Source: a virus. From it: a stretch of DNA of 20,519 nt. The notes beneath the pieces are model-generated. The model worked only from the letters and a program-made list of their open reading frames with translations, made no database searches and had not been told where the DNA came from. The stretch spans positions 1-20,519 of the IMG/VR virus record IMGVR_UViG_3300020175_000072. One strand, written 5' to 3'. Position numbers and translations under genes: made by a program. Each line of letters starts with the position of its first letter. Position 1 is the stretch's first letter. Of this stretch, positions 5,097 through 19,700 are shown in pieces.

Positions 5097-5456
5097 ATGC
5101 AGTACAAAGACAGACCGTTGTGTACGGAGTGTAAGACCAAACCCAAGGCCTATGCCTACAAGAGATATGGCCGTGTGTATTGGCGTAGTCGGTGTGACAC
5201 CTGTATCAGGAAACGGGCTGGCAAGCGAGTTGGCGGTGTGACCGCACTACAGAGATCTGGATACAAGAAGCACAGGAAATGTGAGTTGTGCGGGTTCAAA
5301 GCACAAGATAAGGCACAACTGGATGTGCTGTTTGTGGATGGTGATATGAGGAATACTGTGTCTACAAATCTAAAAACTGTTTGCGCCAATTGCCAGAGGT
5401 TGGGCAGTACTCGTAGATTGGGATGGCGTGTTGGTCATCTTGTCGCTGACGATTAG
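5097..5456 (+). CDS. HNH-like zinc-binding protein with missing catalytic histidines
   Basis: The 119-residue protein has two pairs of zinc-ribbon cysteines: C9/C12 with C33/C36, and C62/C65 with C96/C99. The second half follows the HNH nuclease plan (KCELCGFKA, LDV-x-x-VDGD, NLKTVCANCQRL). The position expected to carry the catalytic His in a DV-x-HIDGN motif is F79, the Asn is D83, and the final CANCH histidine is Q100. The fold is probably kept while nuclease activity is doubtful; nucleic-acid binding is the most reasonable guess. Similar small HNH-like proteins occur in marine T4-like phages. It is the only plus-strand gene in this part, is very basic (many Arg/Lys), and its last 87 bases overlap the end of the convergent dNMP kinase gene. 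Confidence 0.75.
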   Translation: MQYKDRPLCTECKTKPKAYAYKRYGRVYWRSRCDTCIRKRAGKRVGGVTALQRSGYKKHRKCELCGFKAQDKAQLDVLFVDGDMRNTVSTNLKTVCANCQRLGSTRRLGWRVGHLVADD

Positions 5457-6029: not shown

Positions 6030-6058
6030 ATTATACTATTTTTTTAAACGTTTTTCAA
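6030..6058 (-). promoter_or_regulatory. Sigma70-type promoter for the dNMP kinase
   Basis: The minus strand reads TTGAAA, a 17-bp AT-rich spacer, then a perfect TATAAT. The -10 hexamer occupies 6035-6030, so +1 falls at 6023, the first base of the start codon. The promoter lies inside the 3' end of the upstream 60-aa gene. This is an early-type promoter, unlike the TAAATA boxes of the structural genes. Confidence 0.75.
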
Positions 6059-6218
6059 TCTCTTTGATTGCTTCTTTTACAGATTTTAATATGGTAATTC
6101 TTAGACTCTTTTTCCTTTGCTTCAGTGCCTTCATGCTCATCAGTTCTAAATCTTGGACCAGTTGTTCCAATTCATCTAGCGTAAGATCTGAATAACTTTT
6201 GTAATTGGAATCTTTCAT
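6036..6218 (-). CDS. Small charged helical protein, unknown function
   Basis: This 60-residue protein (MKDSNYKSYSDLTLDELEQL...) has an acidic first half and a Lys-rich second half ending KEIEKRLKK. It has no cysteine, aromatic core or membrane segment and is predicted by eye to be almost entirely helical, perhaps a coiled coil with hydrophobic residues every three to four positions. I do not recognise a family. It ends 12 bases before the dNMP kinase start, and its coding sequence contains the kinase promoter. A TTTAAATA box lies 7 nt before its ATG and no clear Shine-Dalgarno is present. Confidence 0.6.
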   Translation of the reverse strand: MKDSNYKSYSDLTLDELEQLVQDLELMSMKALKQRKKSLRITILKSVKEAIKEIEKRLKK

Positions 6219-16540: not shown

Positions 16541-18043
16541 CTATGCATTTACAGTTGTGTTTTGTTGTGCCAGAACAATCCAACCAGTGGATTGATAGAG
16601 CATTGTCATTGTGTCACCCACATCGTCGAATGTGATGCTTGTGCCGTTTAAAAAACTTGCTGGAGTAACAGTAGCATTGCCGCCGTCTGTCTTCAATGTG
16701 ATAATTTTAATCTGTCCTTCTGTGCCATTCGCTAATGAAAAGTTCTGGACTCCAGTTGTTATTAGTTGTGTTACTGTCTCTGTCAAACTTATGACCTCTG
16801 TGCTACCTGAGCCAGTAAGCGTTTGCACACCATTGATCAGTCCGTTAGCAGTCAAAGTGCCTGTGACATTTGTTGTGCCGTCAACAACCAAACCTTCATT
16901 TACGTTGATTGTGGACGAATCAGCGGCAGATAAACTTGTGCCATTGATTGTTATTCCGCCTGCAACAACGTTTCCTGAACCGTTGGCGCTGATTACTAGG
17001 TCTGCGTCAGAGGCATTCGTTGTGATTTCGTTGTCTTTGATCCTCACAAAGTCGATGTCTGACTGTCCTGTGATTGCAACGAATCCAACTGTGGTTAGAT
17101 TTGCAGTTGTTAGGGTGCCTGAGAAGTTACCTGTGCCATCAACCACTAACCCTTCGTTGATATTGATTATAGACGAATCATCTGCTGATAGTGTTGTGCC
17201 AACCACCCTGATACCTGAAGCAACAACGGCTCCAGTACCACCCGGACTCAAATTGAGATCTGCGTTTGAACTAGTGGACACGACGTTATCATTTATTGTT
17301 ATGCCGTCAAATGTACTAGAGCCAGTCGCTGTGAATCCAACGGCGTCTATCTGTCCTGAACTTGAAATGTCAGCGGTTTCTGTGTCGCCACCTGTCACAA
17401 TCAAGCCACCAGTCGCTGTAACTTTGCCGGTTCCTGCTGTGCTTAAAACTAAGGCGTCGTTTGATCTGCTTGCCTTTATCTCGTTGTCAACTATAGTGAC
17501 TCCTTCTATGTCGGCCTGTCCTGTGACAGTAAGTGTTCCATTAGTGGTCAATGCCGCTGTCGTAAGTGTACCTGAAAAATTTCCTGTTCCATCAACTACT
17601 AATGCTTCATTTATGTTGATTGCAGTTGAATCTGAACTATCTAGTGTAGTTCCGTTTACTCTTATAGCACCCAATAGCACATCACCTGTACCACTTGGTT
17701 GTATGCTTATGTCTGCGTTTGAACCATTTGAACTTATAACGTTTGTCGTCAAACTGTTTGCTGTTATATCAGTGGCTGTTACATTGCCGCTGAATATTGC
17801 GTTGCCGCCTTCGCTCATGTCTAACTGTAACGCAGTGATTGTAGCAGAAGAATCCAATCCTTTGAACAGTATGTCATTGTTGTCGCCCATCGACTTGATC
17901 ACCAAGTCTGAAGTAACCCTGCTTATCCTACCAAATTCTGTGCCACCGTCCTGTAGTTTTACATCGGCGTTGTCCGCGTCAAGTATGATATCTCCGACTG
18001 CGTCAATTGTTAAATGGTTTGATGTTCTAATAGTTTTTGACAT
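16541..18043 (-). CDS. Fibre-like structural protein with repeated NEGLVVDGT modules
   Basis: The 500-residue protein carries three related modules beginning near residues 127, 278 and 364: a GIRV-x-GTTL strand, an ADDSS turn, ININEGLVVDGTGNFSGTLT and (twice) a TGQ-[AS]-DI segment. Between them are SNADLNLSPGGTGAV units also seen in its neighbours. The C-terminal ~80 residues (ETVTQLITTGVQNFSLANGT onwards, with ITFDDVGDTMTMLYQSTGWI) form a compact beta domain common at the ends of marine phage fibres. The first 70 residues (DGGTEFGRI...NDILFKGLDS) look like a collagen-free beta shaft. A CATAAATA box ends 6 nt before the ATG and there is no Shine-Dalgarno, so the mRNA would be almost leaderless. 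First gene of the fibre operon. Confidence 0.7.
   Translation of the reverse strand: MSKTIRTSNHLTIDAVGDIILDADNADVKLQDGGTEFGRISRVTSDLVIKSMGDNNDILFKGLDSSATITALQLDMSEGGNAIFSGNVTATDITANSLTTNVISSNGSNADISIQPSGTGDVLLGAIRVNGTTLDSSDSTAININEALVVDGTGNFSGTLTTAALTTNGTLTVTGQADIEGVTIVDNEIKASRSNDALVLSTAGTGKVTATGGLIVTGGDTETADISSSGQIDAVGFTATGSSTFDGITINDNVVSTSSNADLNLSPGGTGAVVASGIRVVGTTLSADDSSIININEGLVVDGTGNFSGTLTTANLTTVGFVAITGQSDIDFVRIKDNEITTNASDADLVISANGSGNVVAGGITINGTSLSAADSSTINVNEGLVVDGTTNVTGTLTANGLINGVQTLTGSGSTEVISLTETVTQLITTGVQNFSLANGTEGQIKIITLKTDGGNATVTPASFLNGTSITFDDVGDTMTMLYQSTGWIVLAQQNTTVNA
16860..17665 (-). repeat. Three diverged fibre modules within the 500-aa gene
   Basis: Modules start near 17665, 17212 and 16954 on the minus strand. 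Each encodes the order GTTL/GTSL, DSS, NEGLVVDGT (NEALVVDGT in the first). Spacing is 151 and 86 residues, so they are not strict tandem repeats. Confidence 0.7.
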
Positions 18044-18104: not shown

Positions 18105-18551
18105 TTATCTAACGTCGATGTTCGCTTTGCCAGAATCCTGACCTTCGTCAGTGCCCTCTGCTTTAAGCGTGTACGGTTTAGAACCTGTTGTACCATCTGC
18201 TTGTACATAGTGTACTGTGTTATTAAAGAACTTACTTACGTAAGCGACTGTTGAGTCATCTAAAATAACTTGTACGCAGAATTGTCCTAAGCCACTTGCG
18301 TCGTCGTTTGCAAGTGAACCTGGAGCAACTGCTCTAAGTTGCATAACAACTTCAGTTGAATCTTCCAAGTGAATCTTGAATAAATTAGATCCTCTCTGTG
18401 ATACAATGTAAGCCACTGTTGAATCAACTTTTGATCCACCGAATGGTCTGTAAGCCGTTACTGCAAGGTTACCAGATAATGTTGAAGCGTGTTCTGAACC
18501 TGTGTGAAATCCGGTTCCGCTCATTTTACTTGATTTAATTGGTCTTCCCAT
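18105..18551 (-). CDS. Virion structural protein (MGRP-type), probably abundant
   Basis: The 148-residue protein starts MGRPIKSSKMSGTGF and contains AYIVSQRGSNLFKIHLEDST and VILDDSTVAYVSKFFNNTVH, ending TLKAEGTDEGQDSGKANIDV plus R. Small proteins beginning MGRP with an IVRQRGS-like strand are familiar to me from T4-like marine phages, where they occur among virion genes; the precise role (for example capsid decoration or fibre attachment) is unknown. The start is supported by an AAAGGAGA Shine-Dalgarno 7 nt before the ATG. That element lies inside a 14-bp perfect palindrome, part of a structured leader of about 96 nt after a late-type box. This leader is the longest in the window. Confidence 0.7.
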   Translation of the reverse strand: MGRPIKSSKMSGTGFHTGSEHASTLSGNLAVTAYRPFGGSKVDSTVAYIVSQRGSNLFKIHLEDSTEVVMQLRAVAPGSLANDDASGLGQFCVQVILDDSTVAYVSKFFNNTVHYVQADGTTGSKPYTLKAEGTDEGQDSGKANIDVR

Positions 18552-18558
18552 TTGTTTT

Positions 18559-18610
18559 CTCCTTTAAAGGAGTCCAATCCCAGTTCTCCTGGGTACGCGG
18601 TTGTATCCGC
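18559..18610 (-). promoter_or_regulatory. Structured 5' leader with three hairpins, one holding the Shine-Dalgarno
   Basis: In minus-strand RNA order: GCGG-(6 nt)-CCGC at 18610-18597, CCCAG-(GAGAA)-CTGGG at 18593-18579, and the perfect palindrome CTCCTTTAAAGGAG at 18572-18559. The last includes the AAAGGAG ribosome binding site, which would be paired in the folded form. This could regulate translation or protect the mRNA 5' region. Confidence 0.6.
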
Positions 18611-18652
18611 ATAAGTCTTTCGCATAATGCAAAAGCACGTTTGAACTGTGTG

Positions 18653-18660
18653 TATTTATT
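18653..18660 (-). promoter_or_regulatory. Late-type box AATAAATA for the MGRP-type gene
   Basis: AATAAATA on the minus strand with a predicted +1 near 18647, about 96 nt before the ATG at 18551. It follows the terminator at 18682-18733. Confidence 0.6.
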
Positions 18661-18681: not shown

Positions 18682-18733
18682 GCAAAGAAAAAGGGTGATG
18701 TGATACAATCCATAAATTAATCACACCACCCTT
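18682..18733 (-). terminator. Rho-independent terminator after the membrane protein gene
   Basis: The minus strand reads AAGGGTGGTGTGAT, a 15-nt loop, then ATCACATCACCCTT followed by TTTCTTT. The 14-bp stem is complete in RNA with one G-U pair; the plus strand has an A-C mismatch there. It ends the transcript of the 77-aa gene. Confidence 0.8.
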
Positions 18734-18762
18734 GAGGTTTACGTATATTCTAGATTTTTATA

Positions 18763-18996
18763 TTATTTTCTGTTGTAGATATGATATAAAATCCAAACTG
18801 CTACCAATCCGATCAAACCTTGATCTGAAAAGCCTTGCAGTACGCCCTGGACGTTCCCGATTACAGAAACGTTTGGCCAGAACGGAATACCTTGACCATT
18901 GAAAAGGATCTCTAAAACGATTCCTAATGCGATTAAACTTACACCGACATCAGCAATACCTTTTGCCCATCCTTTTATTTTGTTAAGATAATCCAT
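18763..18996 (-). CDS. Small two-helix membrane protein, unknown function
   Basis: The 77-residue protein has a short charged N-terminus (MDYLNKIKGWAKG), a hydrophobic segment at about residues 15-33 (ADVGVSLIALGIVLEILF), a loop with IPFWPNVSVIGNVQG, a second hydrophobic segment at about 58-74 (GLIGLVAVWILYHIY) and a basic end NRK. No signal peptide is seen. I recall close relatives next to capsid genes in marine T4-like phages, always uncharacterised. A holin-like role is conceivable from size and topology but unsupported. The GGGAGGT Shine-Dalgarno is strong. It lies between an FkbM-type methyltransferase and a structural gene, and has its own terminator. Confidence 0.75.
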   Translation of the reverse strand: MDYLNKIKGWAKGIADVGVSLIALGIVLEILFNGQGIPFWPNVSVIGNVQGVLQGFSDQGLIGLVAVWILYHIYNRK

Positions 18997-19118: not shown

Positions 19119-19700
19119 CTACGCCGTTTTCTTGAAGGTCCAAACTTGATCTGGCCATTTTTTGGTTACACGTGTCATGCCAAGATCAAATAAAAAATTT
19201 TTTATATCTAACTTTGTTCTGCCATATCTTTCTCCTGATTTGTTTCCTTCGACCTGGATCCATGGTCTGTTTCTTAGAATTGTATCCTTCGCACCTTCTA
19301 GGACAGGAAGTTCATAACCTTCTGCATCAATTTTTATAATGTCAACGTTGTCAAACTGAAAAGAATCTAAAGTTTTTATTTCGATGTCTCCATTTTGACC
19401 ACTTACGTGATATGTGCCTGAGTGGTCGGCACACTGCATTGACACACTGCCTTGCCGGTCTCCAAGAGCCATGTTATGTATTGTGCAATTTTGTAATTTG
19501 CCCACATTGTTCATTAACTTAGGTAAAATATCTTTGTTGGGCTCAAATATTTCCACGCTCGTGGCCTTGTCATGCCACCATATGCTCCATGGCCCCCACC
19601 ATGCACCAATATCAATTATTTTCCTAATAGGGTTGTCTTTGACATAATGATAGAGTAGATCATAATTTCCGTTCTTATCCAGGAAGTCGTATTGCAACAT
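19119..19700 (-). CDS. FkbM-type SAM-dependent methyltransferase
   Basis: The 193-residue protein shows the class I methyltransferase plan. Motif I is IIDIGAWWGPWS (28-39), with EIFEPN (50-55) carrying the acidic residue that normally binds the SAM ribose. IKTLDSF then VDIIKIDAEGYELPVLEGA (about 119-137) is the hallmark of the FkbM family, whose members methylate sugars or other small hydroxyl groups. The target in this phage is unknown; it might modify a glycan, the virion or a host surface sugar. It sits between gp23 and a membrane protein, beyond the gp23 terminator, with its own TGTAAATA box 5 nt before the ATG and no Shine-Dalgarno. It is about the minimal domain, with no glycosyltransferase partner in the window. 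Confidence 0.85.
   Translation of the reverse strand: MLQYDFLDKNGNYDLLYHYVKDNPIRKIIDIGAWWGPWSIWWHDKATSVEIFEPNKDILPKLMNNVGKLQNCTIHNMALGDRQGSVSMQCADHSGTYHVSGQNGDIEIKTLDSFQFDNVDIIKIDAEGYELPVLEGAKDTILRNRPWIQVEGNKSGERYGRTKLDIKNFLFDLGMTRVTKKWPDQVWTFKKTA

Follow-up and report, generated by a model that had tools for sequence, protein, structure and literature searches.

In this phage DNA, the leader of a gene beside the capsid gene gp23 clearly belongs to the freshwater-2 RNA family (Rfam RF02980) and has a candidate regulatory role. Because the element almost always precedes this one gene, named here MGRP for the first residues of its product, control of MGRP is very probably its role. Its carriers are aquatic relatives of the T4-like jumbo phages. 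The features of the leader, located in the window (the whole stretch of 20,519 nt analysed, IMG/VR record IMGVR_UViG_3300020175_000072), are as follows.

18653-18660, minus strand: T4-type late promoter octamer AATAAATA, identified from its sequence, with a predicted transcription start at ~18647
18617-18635, minus strand: hairpin H1, CUUUUGCA/UGCGAAAG, 8 bp with loop UUA, covarying
18594-18613, minus strand: hairpin H2, UAUGCGG/CCGCGUA, 7 bp with one invariant U-G and a variable loop, stem conserved in sequence
18579-18593, minus strand: hairpin H3, CCCAG/CUGGG, 5 bp, covarying stem, with conserved AGAAC at 18583-18587
18571-18577, minus strand: UUGGACU, which might pair with AGUUCAA at 18641-18647 to give a closing helix (P0, this being the 3' strand), unproven
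18559-18572, minus strand: Shine-Dalgarno (SD) hairpin CUCCU-UUAA-AGGAG over the SD AAAGGAG (18559-18565), predicted pairing
18549-18634, minus strand: match to Rfam RF02980 freshwater-2, model positions 1-84 (full), 78 bits, gathering score 49.9, E 1e-10
18105-18551, minus strand: MGRP gene, 148 aa, beta-rich, downstream of gp23, product beginning MGRP

RF02980, a family of type Cis-reg, was the one Rfam 15 match in the whole window at E up to 1. The leader scored 78.0 against 49.9 bits over the whole model, and its three consecutive hairpins carry the consensus pairing with no non-standard pair marked in the model alignment. The model ends in an AUG that is the MGRP start at 18551, which places the element in a cis-regulatory position. 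Leader and consensus share the three hairpins, the conserved CUUAUGCGG/CCGCGUA, the UAGAAC region, AAAGGAG and the AUG; however, the consensus begins past the first mRNA bases and leaves the SD region unpaired, whereas in the window leader the SD is predicted to be masked. No paper explaining freshwater-2 or RF02980 was found in the literature searched; the family reportedly goes back to Weinberg et al. 2017 in NAR. What we add is the gene, the late promoter, the phage context, the SD-masking and compact subtypes and the signs of leader exchange, some of which the original description may already hold.

Read along the minus strand, the leader consists of AATAAATA (18660-18653), about 6 nt, AGUUCAA (18647-18641), H1, H2, H3, and UUGGACUCCUUUAAAGGAG, the stretch between H3 and the ATG at 18551 that contains the SD. 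We take the octamer to be a late promoter from its resemblance to the T4 late consensus, and the start is a prediction. From ~18647 to the ATG (18549-18551) the leader measures 96 nt, as the earlier note had estimated. Hairpins H1-H3 are also present in the thermodynamic fold of 126 nt that include the leader. The energy of this fold is -35.2 kcal/mol, compared with -20.6 ± 3.2 in shuffled sequences, none of which reached so low a value (z -4.6; 0 of 200). TAAATA was found upstream of each of 118 unique leaders parsed, and GU(U)C follows 5-7 nt after it in 106. These 118 come from among the pattern matches listed, with identical leaders counted once; L138 and L141 (which end before the start codon), L157 (whose promoter motif is cut off where its stretch ends) and L084 (a chance match described below) were dropped before counting, and L126 was retained although its downstream gene is not MGRP.

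The distance from TAAATA to the MGRP start, 101 nt, was the longest among 17 genes examined. The contrast originally drawn with leaderless neighbours holds for the flanking genes at 16541-18043 and 19119-19700, where 6 and 5 nt separate TAAATA from the ATG; it fails for the gene next upstream (18763-18996), where the distance is 45 nt. In four window ORFs, 5097-5456 (plus strand), 6036-6218, 16541-18043 and 19119-19700 (all minus strand), the ATG follows a late-type TAAATA by only 5-7 nt, so that late mRNAs of these ORFs would have little or no leader. In the interval that separates the 77-aa gene from the MGRP promoter, we noticed by eye a long terminator-like stem, GGGUGGUGUGAU/AUCACAUCACCC, followed by a U-run (18683-18735, minus strand). 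A terminator scan found none at this position, probably because its loop limit is 8.

The element is tied closely to MGRP. Among IMG/VR records with a close MGRP relative, it lies directly upstream of the start in 39 of 39 (33 above the Rfam cut-off and 6 at 43-45 bits). A DNA pattern built on the H2 region found at least 119 loci; the gene starts with MGRP in 110 of these and otherwise in 7, and 2 have no start. Five of the seven other starts (MARP, MARG, MGRS, MGRA) cluster with MGRP by blastp, and those of L126 and L084 do not. L084, which has no late promoter and an unrelated gene, looks like a chance match. The element of L126 (1577-1677, minus strand) is genuine, but the gene that follows it is a fibre-like one of 239 aa (MATKK...), and its SD mask is CCUU/AAGG instead. 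A second pattern, made of H3 and the SD without the 5' half of H2, added at least 92 loci; all 92 listed precede MGRP, and 91 have TAAATA upstream. Thus, the element stands before MGRP in 207 of the 211 pattern matches listed (110 + 5 + 92 of 119 + 92).

The phage records, the longest of 364,554 bases, each hold a single strong copy; two weak extra matches examined as second copies were SD-like stretches only. Of 50 whole records searched, 49 had a match at E 0.01 (35 above the cut-off), and the exception was Agrobacterium phage Atu_ph07, whose whole record gave no element match. The MGRP homologues of Atu_ph07 (L245, 3001-3981) and of Sinorhizobium phage Phosso (L246, 601-1305) each follow a late-type promoter with only a short leader in between, and no element was seen by eye in the Phosso leader. 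Protein searches with MGRP found no named phages besides these two, and a DNA search with the leader found none (one 31-base match at E 0.3 was taken as chance). A genome scan returned 55 loci (56 core matches by a looser pattern), of which only L234 has MGRP together with the late promoter; the remaining loci were taken as chance. L234 is a contig in the bin of a Rickettsiales MAG (MED657) and is probably a phage contig.

Variation among relatives supports H1 and H3 as RNA structures. Among 46 distinct leaders of the window's class, double changes were found in 6 of the 8 pairs of H1 and 4 of the 5 pairs of H3. The covariation score was 0.249 against 0.107 ± 0.006 in shuffled data (0 of 500), and sliding the strands gave at most 0.124. 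Strand-permutation tests in three classes agreed, with z of 13.1 (window's class), 13.8 and 4.7 for H1 and of 8.8 (window's class), 6.5 and 4.1 for H3 (0 of 2000 each), compared with 1.0, -1.3 and -0.2 in control regions. Stem variation without compensation, named in the earlier note as the sign that its reading was wrong, was absent for both H1 and H3. Because MAFFT aligns the variable H1 badly, just 62.8% of the H1 cells pair on its alignment, and H2 and H3 are the only hairpins that RNAalifold retrieves. H2 behaves differently from these two stems: 6 of its 7 pairs are invariant, including the U-G, and one shows a double change (46 leaders), while its loop varies in length. UAUGCGG was present in 92 of the 92 loci listed by the pattern that does not contain it. 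In H3, the loop keeps AGAAC while the stem sequence changes, and no linker separates the H2 and H3 stems. H1 is thus a structural part, whereas in H2 and the H3 loop the sequence itself is under constraint. The near-invariant H2 stem and the kept AGAAC suggest that something specific probably recognises these parts.

This constraint bears on whether the leader is simply a 5' stabiliser, in which terminal stem-loops only shield the late mRNA from 5'-end-dependent decay. Such a role would suit a structure that starts a few bases from the predicted transcript start and precedes the gene adjoining gp23. It would also suit the short leaders, in which the 5' GU(U)C pairs with bases before UAUGCGG (z 4.3 in 12 compact leaders; z 2.6, 5 of 2000, in 23 short leaders including those of the second scan). 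However, plain protection would not require a stem conserved in sequence, whereas UAUGCGG/CCGCGUA hardly varies and the H3 loop retains AGAAC above a freely changing stem. The idea of a stabiliser, also raised in the earlier note, thus accounts for the position near the 5' end but not for the conservation of the H2 stem and H3 loop, and we consider it unlikely, if the best placed of the alternatives.

We next turn to the SD. In the window leader (identical to that of L001), the SD is predicted to pair with the anti-SD with probability 0.97, leaving it unpaired with probability 0.03. Thus, sequestration of the SD, as originally proposed, describes this leader well; the 14-bp palindrome said to bring it about is a 14-nt palindrome in CTCCTTTAAAGGAG but as RNA a 5-bp hairpin with a 4-nt loop. 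Across the 118 leaders, folded with ~30 coding bases included, the mean probability that the SD is unpaired was 0.09 in 36 leaders with the anti-SD GGACUCC, 0.74 in 59 extended, 0.55 in 11 other and 0.54 in 12 compact leaders. This probability fell below 0.25 in 34 of the 36 anti-SD leaders and in 5 of the 82 others. (Class-wise folding-energy z-scores come from randomly drawn leaders: 19 of 36, 31 of 59, 2 of 11 and 5 of 12.) The pairs of the SD hairpin show no double change among the 46 leaders, which is expected since the SD is fixed, so that covariation is neutral on this hairpin.

In a tree of 103 MGRP proteins, which has few columns and many unresolved forks, all anti-SD leaders fall in one clade of 46 (100/100); to fit the branches with good support, the anti-SD label must have changed at least 5 times. 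L007 and L010, which have no SD mask, precede proteins close to those behind the masked L011 and L012. Masked and open leaders before nearly the same protein indicate that masking is dispensable, and suggest that leaders were exchanged, as if by recombination. More broadly, L007, L010 and L032 differ in leader class from L011, L012 and L170 before closely similar MGRP proteins. SD masking is therefore a subtype feature that has arisen, disappeared or been exchanged inside a single MGRP clade, and not the common function of freshwater-2.

The same distribution argues against a metabolite-binding riboswitch with the SD hairpin as its expression platform. A compact conserved core joined, in one subtype, to an SD-masking hairpin has the look of one; however, of the 82 leaders that do not belong to the subtype, 77 have no masked SD, so the platform is not conserved with the core, and nearly always one gene family lies downstream, with no metabolic gene. 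We regard a riboswitch as improbable. The manA, wcaG and PhotoRC-II RNAs are likewise structured 5' elements of marine metagenomes and T4-like cyanophages, but they precede metabolic, exopolysaccharide or photosynthesis genes (PMC2864571), whereas here it is one gene family adjoining the capsid gene.

A site that acts as DNA, in protein binding, replication or packaging, would sit well with one strong copy per phage record. The stems of the element are compensated, however, the H2 spacer varies in length, the DNA symmetry is broken where RNA can form U-G, and the orientation to promoter and SD is fixed, all of which make a DNA site very improbable.

Proximity of an SD hairpin to a T4-type late promoter also recalls T4 genes e, soc and 49 and I-TevI, where the SD likewise lies in an RNA hairpin near such a promoter. 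For gene e and I-TevI, the late transcript is described as starting without the 5' strand of the SD hairpin (PMC3014915, PMC2988022), so that the SD is masked on early read-through and free on late transcripts. The window differs: its octamer (18653-18660) lies 5' of every strand of the structure, and the late transcript therefore retains both strands of the SD hairpin, which leaves a timing switch of this type with hardly any likelihood. The least probable alternative is a leader peptide from an AUG inside H2: the AUG of UUAUGCGG is present in all 118 leaders parsed, and the window also contains a 34-codon frame that overlaps the MGRP start (by eye), but the upstream frames are spread over 46, 41 and 31 of the 118 relative to MGRP and range in length from 2 to 40 codons, so a conserved upstream frame or peptide was rejected.

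Other pairings were tried and set aside. P0, which would join the 5' end of the mRNA to bases just ahead of the SD, appeared in the first fold, but paired in 95.6% of cells against 94.3% when shuffled, with one covarying pair. Permuting 5' end against linker gave z 1.6 within its class; z 4.9 with all leaders pooled mostly reflects differences between classes. Its probability exceeded 0.5 in 1 of the 36 anti-SD leaders folded with coding sequence and was 0.01 in the window leader, and apparent paired changes occurred only in L163 and L133/134, too few to count. Pseudoknots of the H1 or H2 loop with the 5' end gave z 1.5 (p ~0.07) each in 59 extended leaders, with L082, L108 and L121 striking. 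ARAGORN found no tRNA-like element in the window.

We hypothesize instead that, in T4-like jumbo phages, freshwater-2 acts in cis on how MGRP is translated from a late transcript of its own, a reading whose chances we put at about even. A trans-acting factor, most likely an RNA-binding protein of the phage or the host, would recognise a surface made up of the H2 stem and the H3 loop with its AGAAC, and this putative factor would set how often ribosomes initiate on MGRP. H1 would be a structural part that holds the mRNA 5' end close to a stem. In the window's subtype, the added SD hairpin could serve as a brake that keeps initiation low until it is opened, so that the state of H2-H3 would be read out as access to the SD; in open-SD subtypes, the core would act otherwise, for example through ribosome recruitment or mRNA protection. 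This hypothesis is supported by the compensated H1 and H3, the RF02980 membership, the fixed place between a late-type promoter and the MGRP SD and the single strong copy per record. Against it count the dispensable SD masking and the two jumbo-phage MGRP genes whose short leaders, behind a late-type promoter, lack the element. The element before a different gene in L126 speaks against MGRP itself as the required factor. The translational control element suggested in the earlier note is thus borne out in its Cis-reg family, compensated stems and fixed promoter-SD place, while the SD sequestration it stressed is a feature of one subtype, as given above, and has no covariation of its own.

A translational operator of this kind has a counterpart before the DNA polymerase gene 43 of T4 and RB69, described as one hairpin with a UAAC loop (PMC3014915). 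Both place a hairpin upstream together with the SD region, and the protein target is proven there and proposed here; the window leader differs in having three hairpins, an AGAAC loop and the MGRP gene. More tentatively, and with less confidence than for cis-acting control as such, freshwater-2 might be a translational operator that aquatic T4-like jumbo phages dedicate to one capsid-adjacent protein. In this view, an RNA-binding protein encoded by the phage would read H2-H3, and the leader would be an exchangeable module whose SD brake comes and goes by recombination while the gene stays unchanged. The link to a gene, a promoter and large aquatic phages turns an orphan Rfam motif into a testable question: which factor reads H2-H3, and why does a single late gene adjoining the capsid gene need control? 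Open- and masked-SD leaders before nearly identical proteins offer a natural comparison series for addressing it.

The MGRP protein itself gave no PHROG or Pfam match at E 0.1, and among 79 family members scanned, at most 3 matched any one PHROG at E 0.01, weakly. Its predicted fold is beta-rich (mean pLDDT 80.6). Foldseek found no confident match for the model in the PDB (best E 0.066); among viral models it matched a protein of Agrobacterium phage Atu_ph07 and a 'possible surface protein' of a Yersinia phage. The closest named phages to the partial gp23 (PF07068) of the window are jumbo phages, with Sinorhizobium phage Phosso first (78%), followed by a Vibrio phage and PA5oct-like Pseudomonas phages. 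Gp23 lies upstream of MGRP on the same strand, with its midpoint within 3 kb, in 127 of 156 loci tested, several of which are short or on a shared contig, and downstream in none. In five loci (L089, L112, L118, L128 and L178), the MGRP-type proteins are 366-416 aa long, compared with the usual 110-165.
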